Origin: Coriobacteriia bacterium
Lineage (GTDB): Bacteria > Actinomycetota > Coriobacteriia > Anaerosomatales > Anaerosomataceae
Assembly: GCA_016938135.1 (NCBI GenBank)
Contig: JAFGVD010000009.1
Location: 1 to 45,878, forward strand
DNA: 45,878 nucleotides
Direction of reading: 5' to 3'
The notes beneath the pieces are model-generated. The model did not search any database, was not told where the DNA came from, and saw only the letters and a program-made list of their open reading frames with translations. Every line of letters starts with the position of its first letter. Position 1 is the first letter of the stretch. A program made the position numbers and the translations under genes. This document shows, piece after piece, positions 18,591 through 23,465 of the stretch.

Positions 18591-18717
18591 CGGGCCTGTT
18601 TTGCGGCTGTTCAGGTTCTGGCGAGTTCGGGTTAGCGGTCGCGTGGGAGTATTCCTGTGGTCGGAGAACCGATCACTGGAATGCCGTTTCCCCTCGGCGG
18701 CCGGAAGAGGGGGAACG

Positions 18718-19200
18718 ATGAAGCGATTTGTGTGGGTGCTTGCGGGTCTGGCGGTCGTGTGGTCCATGAGCGGAGCCGGTGCGTATTTCACAGACAGAGC
18801 AGAGGTTCCGGACAACGTGGTCCGGGCAGGGACGGTGTCGGTGTCTACCGAGCCGACGTCATCGGCGTTGTCTATCGATGCGCTTGCGCCGGGCGAGACC
18901 GTCCAGCGTTCGCTGATCGTGATCAACGACGGGCAGCTGGCCGAGGACGTGGTGGTGACCGGCGCCAAGAAGATGGGCATAACCGACTTCTACAATGCGT
19001 TGACGTGCCGGGTTACCGCAGAAGGTGTCCTTCTGTATGAGGGCCCCATGAACGCGCTGAAGACCGCACCGGTGCGTATCGAACGTGCGGGTCGCGCTGA
19101 ATTGGTGTTTGCTGTCGGACTTCCCGCGAGCGCCGGCAACGACCTGGCGGACGACTACGTGCGTATGACGCTCTATGCGGATGCGGAACAGGCTCACTGA
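18718..19200 (+). CDS. TasA/camelysin-like protein with SipW-type signal peptide
   Basis: A 160-residue secreted protein. The N-terminus MKRFVWVLAGLAVVWSMSGAGAYFTDRAEVP is the pattern of SipW-dependent signal peptides, in which a hydrophobic helix is followed by AYF(S/T)D. The mature part continues with NVVRAGTVSVSTEP and beta-rich sequence, as in TasA/camelysin-type subunits, which build fibres or stay on the cell surface. The ATG at 18718 follows AGAGGGGGA; the frame is open further upstream, but that part lacks a signal sequence. Its stop overlaps the signal peptidase start (TGATG), coupling substrate to processing enzyme. At 160 residues it is shorter than TasA. Whether it polymerises is unknown. 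Confidence 0.72.
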   Translation: MKRFVWVLAGLAVVWSMSGAGAYFTDRAEVPDNVVRAGTVSVSTEPTSSALSIDALAPGETVQRSLIVINDGQLAEDVVVTGAKKMGITDFYNALTCRVTAEGVLLYEGPMNALKTAPVRIERAGRAELVFAVGLPASAGNDLADDYVRMTLYADAEQAH

Positions 19201-19736
19201 TGGAAGGGTCCGATCACCGCTATGTCGGCCTGCGTCGAGCCTGCTCCTGCGTCTTGATGCTCACGATCGGTGTCGTCTCTTTCTTGTACGGCGCAACCTG
19301 CATAAGGGGCTCATCGATGGAGCCGACATTGATGCCGGGTGATGTCGTCATCTACAGGCGGGGATGCAGCGGGATCGTTGAGGGCGACACCGTCTTGTTC
19401 GAGAAGGACGGATGGAGCGGTGGTGTGGTGCATCGGGTCATCTCGATCGAGATGGACGGTTCGTTACGCACGTGCGGCGACGCCAATGAAGCGGCGGATG
19501 TCGAACCGGTCGCACTGCCCAGGGTGCGGGGAGTCGTAGTCGGCGTTCTAGCTTCCGGGAAGACGTGGCGGGGGATGAGAAAGACTGTTTCCGATGTGCT
19601 AAACTCGTCTACCAATCGCATGAACTGCGACGACGGAGAGGCGAACTGCATCAGCGTTTCACCAGGGACGGAGCCCCATCGACTGGAAGGGCTTCGGGAA
19701 CGAGCAGGACGGTTCACTCCATCAGCAGCGACCTGA
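19200..19736 (+). CDS. signal peptidase I, SipW (ER-like) type
   Basis: A membrane-bound serine protease that removes signal peptides, most likely that of the coupled upstream protein. One membrane helix lies at about residues 12-33. The catalytic Ser39 is in GSSMEPTLMPGD. His78 in VVHRVI replaces the lysine of ordinary bacterial enzymes, and CGDANE (Asp94) supplies the acidic site, so this is the Ser-His ER/SipW class. The last 45 or so residues (from about 134) are encoded by the sequence that also forms the pheS T-box stem I and look unlike a conserved domain. The C-terminal membrane helix found in some SipW proteins is absent. Confidence 0.82.
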   Translation: MEGSDHRYVGLRRACSCVLMLTIGVVSFLYGATCIRGSSMEPTLMPGDVVIYRRGCSGIVEGDTVLFEKDGWSGGVVHRVISIEMDGSLRTCGDANEAADVEPVALPRVRGVVVGVLASGKTWRGMRKTVSDVLNSSTNRMNCDDGEANCISVSPGTEPHRLEGLRERAGRFTPSAAT

Positions 19737-19895
19737 ACAGCCGATCAGGCCCAGTAGGCAAGCCGGTGTCCCACCGTTATCGGGAAGGCCGAGTCAGATT
19801 CGGCACAAAGTGGGCGCTATGCGCCAACCGAGGTGGTACCGCGGGAGCCGTTCCCGTCCTTGGATATATCCTGGGACAGGGCGGCTCCCTTTTTG
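19600..19895 (+). promoter_or_regulatory. T-box riboswitch, phenylalanine-specific, controlling pheST
   Basis: Senses uncharged tRNA-Phe and permits read-through into pheS. Stem I is closed by CTCGT (19604-19608) with ACGAG (19700-19704). The specifier codon TTC (Phe) is at 19693-19695, just before the closing strand. The T-box AGGTGGTACCGCGG (from 19831) has UGGU at 19834-19837, able to pair with the ACCA end of tRNA-Phe. The terminator is a GGGAGCCG/CGGCTCCC stem (19843-19850 with 19882-19889) followed by TTTTT. Its 5' part overlaps the signal peptidase gene. Confidence 0.93.
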
Positions 19896-19917: not shown

Positions 19918-20979
19918 ATGAGCATCGCAGAAGAACTTTCAGCATTGCGCGACGAAGCGCTCGATGCGGTCGTGTCCGCGACGGACCTGGACTCGCTCGA
20001 GGCCGTCCGTATCGCTTATCTCGGTAAGAAGGGCTCGCTGACAGCAGTGCTGCGCGGGCTTGGTTCCCTTTCGGCCGAGGAGCGACCGGCGGCCGGGAAG
20101 CTCTCCAACGAGGTTCGGATTGCGTTGGAGGAAGCTCTCACGCAGAAGCGCTCCCGTCTTGAGTCAGAAGCCCTGGCTTCGCGTATCAGCGCACAGGCCG
20201 TTGACGTGACTCTGCCCGGGAGACAGCGCATGCCCGGCAAGCGGCACGTCATACATCAGGTCGTCGATGAGATCGTCCAGACTTTCGTAGGACTTGGATA
20301 TGAGATCGGCGAAGGCCCTGAGGTGGAGCTGGACTACTACAACTTCACCGCGCTCAACCACCCCGCGGACCATCCCGCCCGTGCGCTTCAAGACACCTTC
20401 TACGTGCGTGACCTCTCGGGCGACCGCGCGGTGGTCGAAGGTGAGTCGGACGTGCTGCTCCGCACGCATACCAGTCCCGTGCAGGTGCACACGATGGAGA
20501 CCAAGAAACCTCCCATCTATGTGCTGGCTCCGGGCAAGGTCTATCGCCGGGATGTGGCCGATCCAAGCCATTTGCCGCAGTTCACGCAGATAGAAGGCCT
20601 CGTAGTCGACGAGGGGATCACGTTCGGAGACCTGAAGGGTACCCTCGAGCACTTCGTGAAGCGGATGTTCGGGGATGTGAGTCGTGTGAGGCTGCGGCCC
20701 CACTTCTTCCCGTTCACCGAGCCATCGGCCGAGGTCGACATCTCCTGCGGCATCTGCGGGGGAGAGGGCTGTCGTTCATGCGGCGGCGAAGGATGGCTTG
20801 AGATCTTGGGGTGCGGCATGGTCGATCCCAACGTCTTCCGCCACGTAGGCATCGACCCGGAGCGCTACTCCGGCTTTGCCTTCGGCATGGGTGCAGAGCG
20901 CATAGCCGCACTCAAGTACGGGATACCCGATCTGCGTCTGTTCATCGAAGGCGATATGCGGTTCCTTCGCCAGTTCTGA
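19918..20979 (+). CDS. pheS: phenylalanyl-tRNA synthetase alpha subunit
   Basis: Catalytic subunit of the alpha2-beta2 enzyme that charges tRNA-Phe. The 353-residue product has an N-terminal coiled coil and the class II core: motif 1-like HVIHQVVDEIVQTFVGLGYEI, HTSPVQVHTM, the motif 2 KVYRRDVADPSHLPQFTQIEG and motif 3 GFAFGMGAERIAALKYGI. A CGICGGEGCRSCGGEGWLEILGCG insertion has cysteine pairs typical of some PheS lineages. ATG at 19918 follows GTGAGGG. Expression is controlled by the T-box upstream. Confidence 0.97.
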   Translation: MSIAEELSALRDEALDAVVSATDLDSLEAVRIAYLGKKGSLTAVLRGLGSLSAEERPAAGKLSNEVRIALEEALTQKRSRLESEALASRISAQAVDVTLPGRQRMPGKRHVIHQVVDEIVQTFVGLGYEIGEGPEVELDYYNFTALNHPADHPARALQDTFYVRDLSGDRAVVEGESDVLLRTHTSPVQVHTMETKKPPIYVLAPGKVYRRDVADPSHLPQFTQIEGLVVDEGITFGDLKGTLEHFVKRMFGDVSRVRLRPHFFPFTEPSAEVDISCGICGGEGCRSCGGEGWLEILGCGMVDPNVFRHVGIDPERYSGFAFGMGAERIAALKYGIPDLRLFIEGDMRFLRQF

Positions 20980-21026: not shown

Positions 21027-23465
21027 ATGCGCGTCTCGCTGAAGTGGCTCTCCGAGCTTGTGGACATCGATGTCGATGTCTCCACGCTGTGCGACCGACT
21101 CGACATGACCGGTACCAAGGTAGAGGCCGTCCATATGACCGGGGCTACGCTTGATGGAGTAGTGGTCGGCCAGGTGCTCACCAAAGACCCGCACCCCGAG
21201 GCAGACAAGCTCTCGTGCTGCACGGTCGATGTTGGCGAGGCAGAAGCGCTGTCCATCGTCTGCGGGGCCACGAACTTCAAGGCAGGTGACAAGGTGCCGG
21301 TCGCTACGGTGGGGGCCACGCTGCCCAACGGGATGACCATAAAGAAGGCCAAGCTCCGCGGGCAGGTCTCTATGGGGATGATGTGCTCTTCCACTGAGCT
21401 GGCCGTTGGCGGCGACGCATCGGGGCTGCTCATCCTTCCCGAGGATGCGCCGATAGGCGTTGCGTACGGGACGTACGCGGGGCTCTCGGATACAGTGCTG
21501 GAACTCGAGGTCACCCCGAACCGCCCCGACTGCCTGTCCATGGTGGGTGTAGCCCGAGAGGTGGGCGCAGTCATGGGGAGTCCTTTCAAGACTCCCGCGT
21601 CGCTGCCCGAAGAGGCCGGCGCTCCTGCCGCCGGGGCGGTCACGGTCCGTGTGGACAATCCGGATCTGTGTCCCCGCTACACCGCGCGAGTGATGCGTGG
21701 TGTGAAAGTGGGGCCGTCGCCTGACTGGCTGGTGCAGCGCATCACCGCTGCCGGTGCTCGGCCCATCAACAATGTGGTCGACGTCACGAACTACATCCTG
21801 TTCGAACTCGGTCAGCCGCTCCACGCGTTCGATCTGGACAAGATCGCAGCCAGCGGGGGCAAGGCCGAGATCATCGTCCGTACTGCGATCGAGGGAGAGG
21901 AACTCAAGACGCTCGACGGGCAGGTACGCCGTTTGGCCGCTGACACTCTGGTCATCGCAGACACCAGGGGTCCTGTCGCACTTGCCGGAGTCATGGGCGG
22001 GGAGGATTCTGAGGTCTCCGACCAGACCGTGGACGTACTGCTCGAGTCCGCGTGTTTCGACACCTCCACCACGAGCCGTACGAGCCGTCGGCTGGGACTG
22101 ATCTCCGAGGCCTCGCTCCGCTTTGAGCGCGGCGTTGACCCCGAGCTGGCCGCCCGCGCGTCTGACCGTGCCGCGCAGTTGCTGGCCGAGGTAAGCGGTG
22201 GAACCGTGGCGCCCGGGATCGTGGACGTCTATCCGGCCGCTCCGGAGCCGTGCGTGCTCCGTTTGCGAGGAGAACGCCTGCGCGCGATCATCGGCGCACC
22301 CATCACCGATGACGAGGCCGCGTCTATCCTCGTCTCGCTGGGATTGACGCTGGAGCCTGCCGAGGACGGCTTCGACGTGACCGTCCCCACCTTCCGCCCC
22401 GACCTTGTGCGCGAGATCGACTTGATAGAGGAGGTCGTGCGTGTTTGGGGGATGGAGCGCGTTCCCTCGACGTTCCCCGGTGGGCGGGAGCGTGTCGGTG
22501 CCCTCACGGCGGGACAGCAGCGTGACCTGTCGATCGGCGTCGCACTGCGCGCTGCCGGTCTCAACGAGCACATAGGCTATGCATTCGCCGATCCCCGCGA
22601 CATGGAGCGTCTGGGTTGGGAACTCGGTCCCGATGAAGTGCCGGTCGAGCTGATCAATCCCATGTCAGAAGAGCAAGCGGTCATGCGATGGACGCTTGCG
22701 GCGGGGTTGCTACGCGCCGTCTCCTACAATCAGCGCCGTGGTGCGGGCGATGTGCACATCTACGAACTTGGCAACGTCTTTGTCACCGCGCCGGGGCGCA
22801 AGCAGCCAAAGCAGCGTCTAATGGTGGGCGGGGTCCTCGCGGGAGCGTGGGAGCGTCCCTCATGGGACCAAGACGCCCGGCCACTGGACTTCTTCGATGG
22901 CAAGGGCGCGGTTGAGACCCTACTGACCGAGCTCGGTGTGGATCGCGTCAAGTTCCGCACTAGCGAGCGCGCCTGGTTGCAGGCCGGGCGCAGCGCGGAT
23001 GTCATCGTGCGTGGCGATGTGGTGGGCTGGATAGGTGAAGTCGCGCCGCAGGTGCTTGATGCGTACGGTGCAACCGGCCCTGTCACGATGTTCGAACTCG
23101 GCGTCGCACCGCTTGGAAAGGCGGGTACCCGGACCCGTGCGTATTCCGAGGTCCCGCGATACCCGTCGGTGAACCTCGATATCGCCCTGGTCGTGGACGA
23201 AGAGGTCACATCCGAGCAGCTTGTGCATGCGATGACCTCTGCAGGTGGCAAGCTGCTTGACGGGATACGTCTGTTCGATGTGTACAGAGACCCGCAGGAC
23301 GCGCCTGCCGGGGAACGCCGTCTCCCCGAAGGCAAGAAGAGCCTGGCGTTCTCGTTATCGTACCGTTCAAATGAGCAGACGCTGAGCGATGAGGTCGTGC
23401 GTCCGGTCCACGAGAAGCTGCTTGCGAAGGTCTGCCGTGCTACCGGAGCAGAGGTGCGCGGATAG
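21027..23465 (+). CDS. pheT: phenylalanyl-tRNA synthetase beta subunit
   Basis: Beta subunit that binds tRNA-Phe and edits Tyr-tRNA-Phe. The 812-residue product has the usual order: N-terminal domain, tRNA-binding EMAP-like domain (about 40-150, with HPEADKL), B3/B4 editing domain (about 210-375), B5 domain (about 400-475) and the catalytic-like core. It ends in an FDX-ACB anticodon-binding domain (about 718-811, beginning YSEVPRYPSVNLDIALVVDE). A strong AGAGGAAGGA precedes the ATG, 47 bases after pheS. No terminator-like hairpin was identified after it. Confidence 0.97.
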   Translation: MRVSLKWLSELVDIDVDVSTLCDRLDMTGTKVEAVHMTGATLDGVVVGQVLTKDPHPEADKLSCCTVDVGEAEALSIVCGATNFKAGDKVPVATVGATLPNGMTIKKAKLRGQVSMGMMCSSTELAVGGDASGLLILPEDAPIGVAYGTYAGLSDTVLELEVTPNRPDCLSMVGVAREVGAVMGSPFKTPASLPEEAGAPAAGAVTVRVDNPDLCPRYTARVMRGVKVGPSPDWLVQRITAAGARPINNVVDVTNYILFELGQPLHAFDLDKIAASGGKAEIIVRTAIEGEELKTLDGQVRRLAADTLVIADTRGPVALAGVMGGEDSEVSDQTVDVLLESACFDTSTTSRTSRRLGLISEASLRFERGVDPELAARASDRAAQLLAEVSGGTVAPGIVDVYPAAPEPCVLRLRGERLRAIIGAPITDDEAASILVSLGLTLEPAEDGFDVTVPTFRPDLVREIDLIEEVVRVWGMERVPSTFPGGRERVGALTAGQQRDLSIGVALRAAGLNEHIGYAFADPRDMERLGWELGPDEVPVELINPMSEEQAVMRWTLAAGLLRAVSYNQRRGAGDVHIYELGNVFVTAPGRKQPKQRLMVGGVLAGAWERPSWDQDARPLDFFDGKGAVETLLTELGVDRVKFRTSERAWLQAGRSADVIVRGDVVGWIGEVAPQVLDAYGATGPVTMFELGVAPLGKAGTRTRAYSEVPRYPSVNLDIALVVDEEVTSEQLVHAMTSAGGKLLDGIRLFDVYRDPQDAPAGERRLPEGKKSLAFSLSYRSNEQTLSDEVVRPVHEKLLAKVCRATGAEVRG

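Follow-up and report, generated by a model that had tools for sequence, protein, structure and literature searches.

A probable pheST T-box overlapping the 3' coding end of a signal peptidase gene in a Coriobacteriia bacterium

In this study we describe a stretch of DNA in which a regulatory RNA and the end of a neighbouring gene use the same bases. The window, by which we mean the whole 45,878-nt stretch that was analysed, carries an RNA before pheS that looks, by its sequence, like an ordinary transcription-attenuating pheST T-box, and the stem I of this RNA lies inside the open reading frame of a signal peptidase. We consider it probable (about 0.8) that this is a compact junction, with promoter and RNA under selection and the peptidase tail as unselected read-through. 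As read from the sequences of relatives, the most novel point is that a triplet of the T-box K-turn doubles as the stop codon of the neighbouring gene in 17 genomes.

RESULTS

Locus layout and identity of the T-box

The window corresponds to contig C25 of genome G000; 69 genomes of its order and 396 of its class were searched. The list of open reading frames and profile searches gave the gene order infC, rpmI, rplT, TasA/camelysin-like gene, signal peptidase, T-box, pheS and pheT, where the gene that we take to be rpmI was recognized from its translation without a profile match. The first 141 residues of pheS find their closest match among titled records in a Coriobacteriia MAG (L096, 75% identity), a comparison that may omit the window's own records. 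The TGA of the TasA-like gene overlaps the ATG of the peptidase gene in TGATG (19198-19202), which suggests that translation of both genes may be coupled. All features are collected in Table 1.

Table 1. Features at the junction of the signal peptidase gene and pheST (positions in the window)
Feature	Positions	Strand	Basis
TasA/camelysin-like secreted protein ORF	18601..19200	+	Pfam PF12389 2.3e-7; coordinates of the longest ORF (start uncertain)
Signal peptidase, SipW/archaeal-ER type, 178 aa	19200..19736	+	ORF, PF10502
Putative extended -10 promoter box TGCTAAACT, within peptidase gene	19597..19605	+	scored scan of loci
T-box stem I, wholly within peptidase ORF	19625..19728	+	Rfam, fold, model R1, family covariation
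K-turn 5' side, GACGAC in window	19629..19634	+	aligned loci
Apical T-loop 1, AGGGA	19664..19668	+	sequence
Apical T-loop 2, UGGAA	19684..19688	+	sequence
Specifier UUC (Phe), then A; in peptidase frame	19713..19715	+	sequence; tRNA-Phe (GAA) in same genome
Peptidase stop UGA, part of CUGAA directly 3' of stem I	19734..19736	+	family alignment
Antiterminator, T-box bulge UGGU 19834-19837	19828..19863	+	fold, sequence
Intrinsic terminator hairpin + U run, exclusive with antiterminator	19843..19894	+	fold, z -6.0
pheS, phenylalanyl-tRNA synthetase alpha	19918..20979	+	TIGR00468 335.7 bits, cut-off 237.45
pheT, phenylalanyl-tRNA synthetase beta	21027..23465	+	Pfam B3_4, tRNA_synthFbeta, FDX-ACB, tRNA_bind, B5

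The occurrence of a T-box at this place is far beyond chance. Rfam model RF00230 matched positions 19621-19864 with 45.9 bits (E 7.1e-9 in a search of 701 bases); its curated gathering score is 93, and a scan at the gathering threshold left the T-box of the window out of its matches. Our own model R1, which describes the stem I of the family and was built from 26 training sequences, matched positions 19619-19738 with E 1e-20, the window itself being one training row. The minimum-energy fold pairs CUGC (19625-19628) with GCAG (19725-19728) at the base of stem I. Taken for the window alone, the fold energy of stem I is not unusual (z -1.1); for the stretches folded as terminator and antiterminator, z was -6.0 and -0.5, respectively. 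The K-turn place could be aligned and reads GACGA in the window. For the apical interlocked T-loops PMC7583486 gives the consensus AGAGA and UGxRA, from which the AGGGA of the window is one base off and which its UGGAA fits. Among 30 tRNA loci scanned, out of 45 genome matches, is one tRNA-Phe (GAA) with the 3' end ACCA, and the UGGU bulge is complementary to this acceptor end. Four more T-boxes were noted on contigs C19, C7, C31 and C42 of the same genome (L001-L004), three of them above the Rfam cut-off.

The signal peptidase and its tail

An earlier, sequence-only reading of this DNA had reported that the peptidase frame stays open to 19736, and this was confirmed: no stop was found from ATG 19200 to TGA 19734-19736. 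The same reading had let the T-box begin by 19604, with CTCGT (19604-19608) as the closing strand of stem I, and had counted about 45 codons shared by protein and RNA. The matches to RF00230 and R1 bear out the overlap, and the fold moves its start. CTCGT overlaps the -10 hexamer described below and was rejected as a strand of stem I. With stem I beginning at 19625, protein and RNA have about 36 codons (142-177) in common rather than 45. In the frame of the peptidase, the specifier UUC happens to be read as a codon for Phe. At the end of the frame, the UGAA of the CUGAA that holds the peptidase stop is invariant in 26/26 family sequences, and the C is nearly invariant.

The peptidase scored 25.4 bits against Pfam PF10502, over the cut-off of 22.9, and below the cut-offs of three NCBIfam models: TIGR02228 with 50.1 bits (cut-off 51.85), TIGR02227 with 34.3 (47) and the SipW model NF046067 with 26.2 (190). 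Ser39 and His78 of the S26 domain, presumably its catalytic residues, are invariant in the seven aligned sequences. An AlphaFold2 model made from seven sequences gave block means of pLDDT of 79-93 for residues 11-130, 70 for residues 131-140 and 46-51 from residue 141 on. The tail encoded by stem I is thus predicted to be disordered; the low values are weak evidence and would be expected anyway, as such a tail is missing from all six relatives in the alignment.

A candidate promoter before stem I

TAAACT at 19600-19605 forms, together with the preceding TG, an extended -10 box (TGCTAAACT). Across the order, 53 of 61 loci had a box of this kind with a score of 10 or more, versus none of 732 control windows further upstream; the score was devised after the motif had been seen. 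The gap between the best box and stem I measured 18-22 nt in 58 of the 61 loci; the scan put the box wrongly in G006 and gave no good box in G034. Outside the order, a TGTGCTA-type box was seen by eye before most of 20 T-boxes. A sigma-70 scan requiring a -35 box gave no promoter, and there was little sign of -35 boxes in the 61 loci, with a mean best match of 2.87 of 6 versus 2.57 expected. Because no -35 box supports it, the claim of a promoter rests on the extended -10 box. The conservation of this box in the order and its fixed spacing to stem I make it probable that the T-box is transcribed from a promoter of its own within the last part of the peptidase gene, just where the sequence-only reading had proposed to look for one. 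Transcripts would then start near 19612.

Peptidase stops and T-boxes among relatives

Matches to R1 were found in 61 of the 69 genomes of the order (26 of these 61 being the training set) and in 302 of the 396 genomes of the class. Eight genomes of the order had no match, of which five were looked at and three (G063, G065, G068) left out. A T-box was absent at the pheS locus of G032, G045, G048 and G058, whose loci were read, and G024 lacked a pheS match. The four genomes whose locus was read (L092, L091, L088, L070; G032, G045 and G058 belong to one family, G048 to another) keep the peptidase without a T-box match. By eye, they show a long hairpin before pheS, and the TGCTACACT box is kept in three. 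To judge by these sequences, it looks like the T-box has been replaced there by another attenuator.

The position of the peptidase stop was compared with that of the K-turn UGA in all 61 T-box loci, the window included. In 30 loci it precedes the UGA by more than 25 nt and in 6 by 6-21 nt; in 17 it coincides with the UGA, and in 5 it comes later. In two of the six, G029 and G054, the peptidase gene ends at base 1 or 2 of stem I. The remaining three loci (G034, G028 and G043, i.e. L071, L084 and L094) have no peptidase within 330 nt. They belong to the same order and carry a pheS T-box without an adjoining peptidase; in G034 the same contig carries a peptidase match about 2.6 kb upstream, in G043 there is only a weak match elsewhere, and G028 has none. 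The sequence-only reading had named well-separated genes in relatives as an argument against the overlap, and the answer is a mixed one: of 58 peptidases, 36 end ahead of stem I or within its first two bases, 17 reach about 7 nt into it and stop at the K-turn UGA, and 5 go further. Stops past the K-turn were located at +103 in the window, +107 in G041 and G050, +101 in G053 and +50 in G039, and these four other genomes come from three other families. On a pheS tree with 58 rows, which held four of the five read-through genomes and was given a midpoint root for drawing only, mapping the read-through state against the K-turn group takes at least two changes, corresponding to at least two origins of read-through.

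Within the window's own family (f1), 19 of the 25 other members have the peptidase stop within the -10 box or immediately ahead of it, e.g. TGATGCTAGACT, five have it on the K-turn UGA and the genus-mate G001 has it 14 nt before stem I; in none does it lie further on. The K-turn place itself reads UGA in 53 of the 61 loci, UAA in 2 and CGA in 6, with the window among the latter. Where the peptidase stops there, the sequence is AUGA in 15 of 17 loci, GUGA in G036 and CUGA in G046; the window has ACGA. In AUGA, stop and start codon overlap, so that a ribosome terminating there could reinitiate and enter stem I.

We also sampled 20 T-box loci outside the order, picked among the better matches and with 16 of them from one family. 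The peptidase profile was found upstream in none of the 20, and a pheS match downstream in 19. The pheS T-box is therefore spread wider than its neighbourhood with the peptidase.

Past the K-turn, the window reads stem I in phase 1, and G039, G041, G050 and G053 read it in phase 2; the 17 K-turn stops are in phase 0. Since the five read-through loci use two phases, no common peptide is kept, and the same RNA, being read in different phases, yields different peptides, or none. An open frame through the T-box is not beyond chance: an open stretch of at least 95 nt occurs in phase 1 of 50 and in phase 2 of 46 of the 61 T-boxes, and after mononucleotide shuffling of 104-nt stem I sequences 45% of the frames (8168/18300) remain without a stop. 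As these two phases are so commonly open, a long frame through stem I needs no explanation. Of the 22 loci with a frame reaching stem I, 17 share the frame of the K-turn UGA, a hint that read-through is not entirely neutral. The bias could stem from selection for ribosomes to be released ahead of stem I, or shared descent of the frame may explain it instead.

Selection on the RNA and on the peptide

Among the 26 sequences of the family, 94.0% of stem I pairs are standard and 15 of 25 pairs have changed on both sides; these scores are favoured by a structure that was derived largely from the same 26 sequences. None of 500 shuffles scored as high in any of five measures, and with slid partners the pairing dropped to 37-48%. 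The window genome G000 differs from G001 at 8 of 37 third positions in stem I, compared with 78 of 123 third positions in the core (p 9e-6); for the pair G041/G050 the values are 2 of 37 versus 38 of 125 (p 0.001). First and second positions gave no significant difference between stem I and core in the two genome pairs (p 0.10 and 0.26). The lower number of third-position differences means that silent sites in stem I are constrained, as constraint on the RNA predicts. Counted by codon position, G000 and G001 differ at 7/6/8 sites in stem I and 36/31/78 in the core. The share of third positions among the differences (10/25 in stem I versus 116/199 in the core) has the expected direction without being significant (p 0.09), and hence the loss of the coding signature rests on few changes.

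Seven stem I pairs differ between G000 and G001. Six of them are standard in both genomes, two via changes on both sides, and the seventh is a broken A-A in the window versus U-A in G001. The window keeps 23 of 25 pairs, its broken ones being A-A at stem I alignment columns 28/100 and A-G at 29/99, and the other 25 family members keep 21-25. With two pairs broken the RNA of the window is slightly poorer than that of most relatives. Between the K-turn and the stop, G041 and G050 show five base differences in an alignment read by eye, three of which change an amino acid. Together, these comparisons of sequences suggest that evolution has kept the RNA and that the extra protein tail is a by-product.

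DISCUSSION

The compact junction that we favour would consist of a self-contained unit, with an extended -10 promoter, a Phe T-box with terminator and pheST, directly 3' of the signal peptidase gene. Uncharged tRNA-Phe would pair with UUC and UGGU, so that the antiterminator is favoured and transcription passes into pheST. Throughout the order the packing would be so tight that the promoter comes to lie in or beside the last peptidase codons, and the peptidase would end at the first in-frame stop, be it in the -10 region, at the K-turn UGA or else within or after stem I. In the species of the window the frame meets neither of the first two, and the protein would thereby have gained about 36 residues that derive from stem I. 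Promoter and RNA would be under selection and the tail would be tolerated. The anatomy, the conservation, the covariation and the use of frames are observed; from them we infer the activity of the promoter, the response to tRNA and the harmlessness of the tail.

The sequence-only reading had left a choice between unconstrained read-through into a leader and selection on both products. Our data agree with the former and not with the latter, in which the tail would be a functional C-terminus and the same bases would be kept for protein and RNA. As such a double function might predict, G041 and G050 likewise have a frame without stops through stem I, and their tails are nearly identical. However, the window crosses stem I in another phase than the other read-through loci do, the genus-mate G001 stops before stem I, three of the five base differences between G041 and G050 alter the protein, and the tail, which is not conserved, is predicted to be disordered, so that we regard a double function as highly improbable. 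Somewhat less improbable, although still very unlikely, is an error in the metagenome assembly, i.e. a missed base that masks a normal stop. The window is a single assembly, and a length difference of one base from G001 adjoins the -10 box. Against this, four other genomes from three other families also stop after the K-turn, and the separate assemblies of G041 and G050 are identical over 38 bases before stem I.

It might also be possible that ribosomes finishing the peptidase on transcripts started further upstream unfold or cover stem I and thereby affect attenuation of pheST, with the K-turn UGA kept in frame for timely release. Such coupling would fit the finding that 53 of 58 peptidases end at or before the K-turn UGA and that 17 of the 22 reaching stem I use the one frame that ends there. 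A promoter belonging to the T-box would give transcripts without the peptidase start, though, and the frame bias may be inherited; on balance we think that coupling is unlikely. A wider form of this idea, which we find similarly doubtful, would hold for the whole order: the K-turn UGA might be kept in frame as the peptidase stop, one trinucleotide serving as motif of the RNA fold and as translation stop, and release at this point would protect stem I. In a lineage that has lost the frame, such as that of the window, T-box function would come to depend on translation of the peptidase, sometimes with loss of the T-box as the outcome.

Our search of the literature covered mostly papers available without subscription, and by title and start of abstract none describes a T-box or riboswitch over the coding end of an upstream gene. 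Passages of PMC1262725, PMC7583486 and PMC2494555 report no such overlap of a T-box with a coding end either. Nearest to our case, by the same criterion of title and start of abstract, are two papers on riboswitches and small upstream ORFs of M. tuberculosis (PMC11260477, PMC12810186).

The compact junction would show how tightly regulatory RNA and neighbouring coding sequence can be packed and which of them yields: RNA and promoter stay and the end of the protein drifts. As the stops lie variously ahead of, on and beyond the base of stem I, the loci could serve as natural replicates for testing if a T-box is disturbed by ribosomes that pass over it. As a caution, annotated C-terminal tails on genes of this kind may be RNA read as protein.

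Compared with known systems, the RNA shares with transcription-attenuating T-boxes (RF00230) the stem I, the place of the K-turn, the UUC specifier, the two apical T-loop motifs, an antiterminator with UGGN, a terminator, pheST downstream and a tRNA-Phe (GAA, ending in ACCA) in the same genome. It differs in its score of 45.9 bits against a gathering score of 93, in GACGA at the K-turn and in having stem I within the coding sequence of a neighbour. The peptidase resembles SipW/archaeal-ER signal peptidases that stand beside a TasA/camelysin-like gene, having the S26 domain with its invariant Ser and His and the overlap of stop and start, and differs by about 36 C-terminal residues whose codons lie in an RNA element. 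Same-strand overlaps that place a promoter or leader in the 3' end of the preceding gene form a general kind, to which the probable pheST promoter and its regulatory leader in the peptidase 3' end would belong. The present case stands apart in that the overlap covers the tRNA-binding domain of a T-box and in that the K-turn UGA is the stop codon of the neighbour in 17 of 61 loci.
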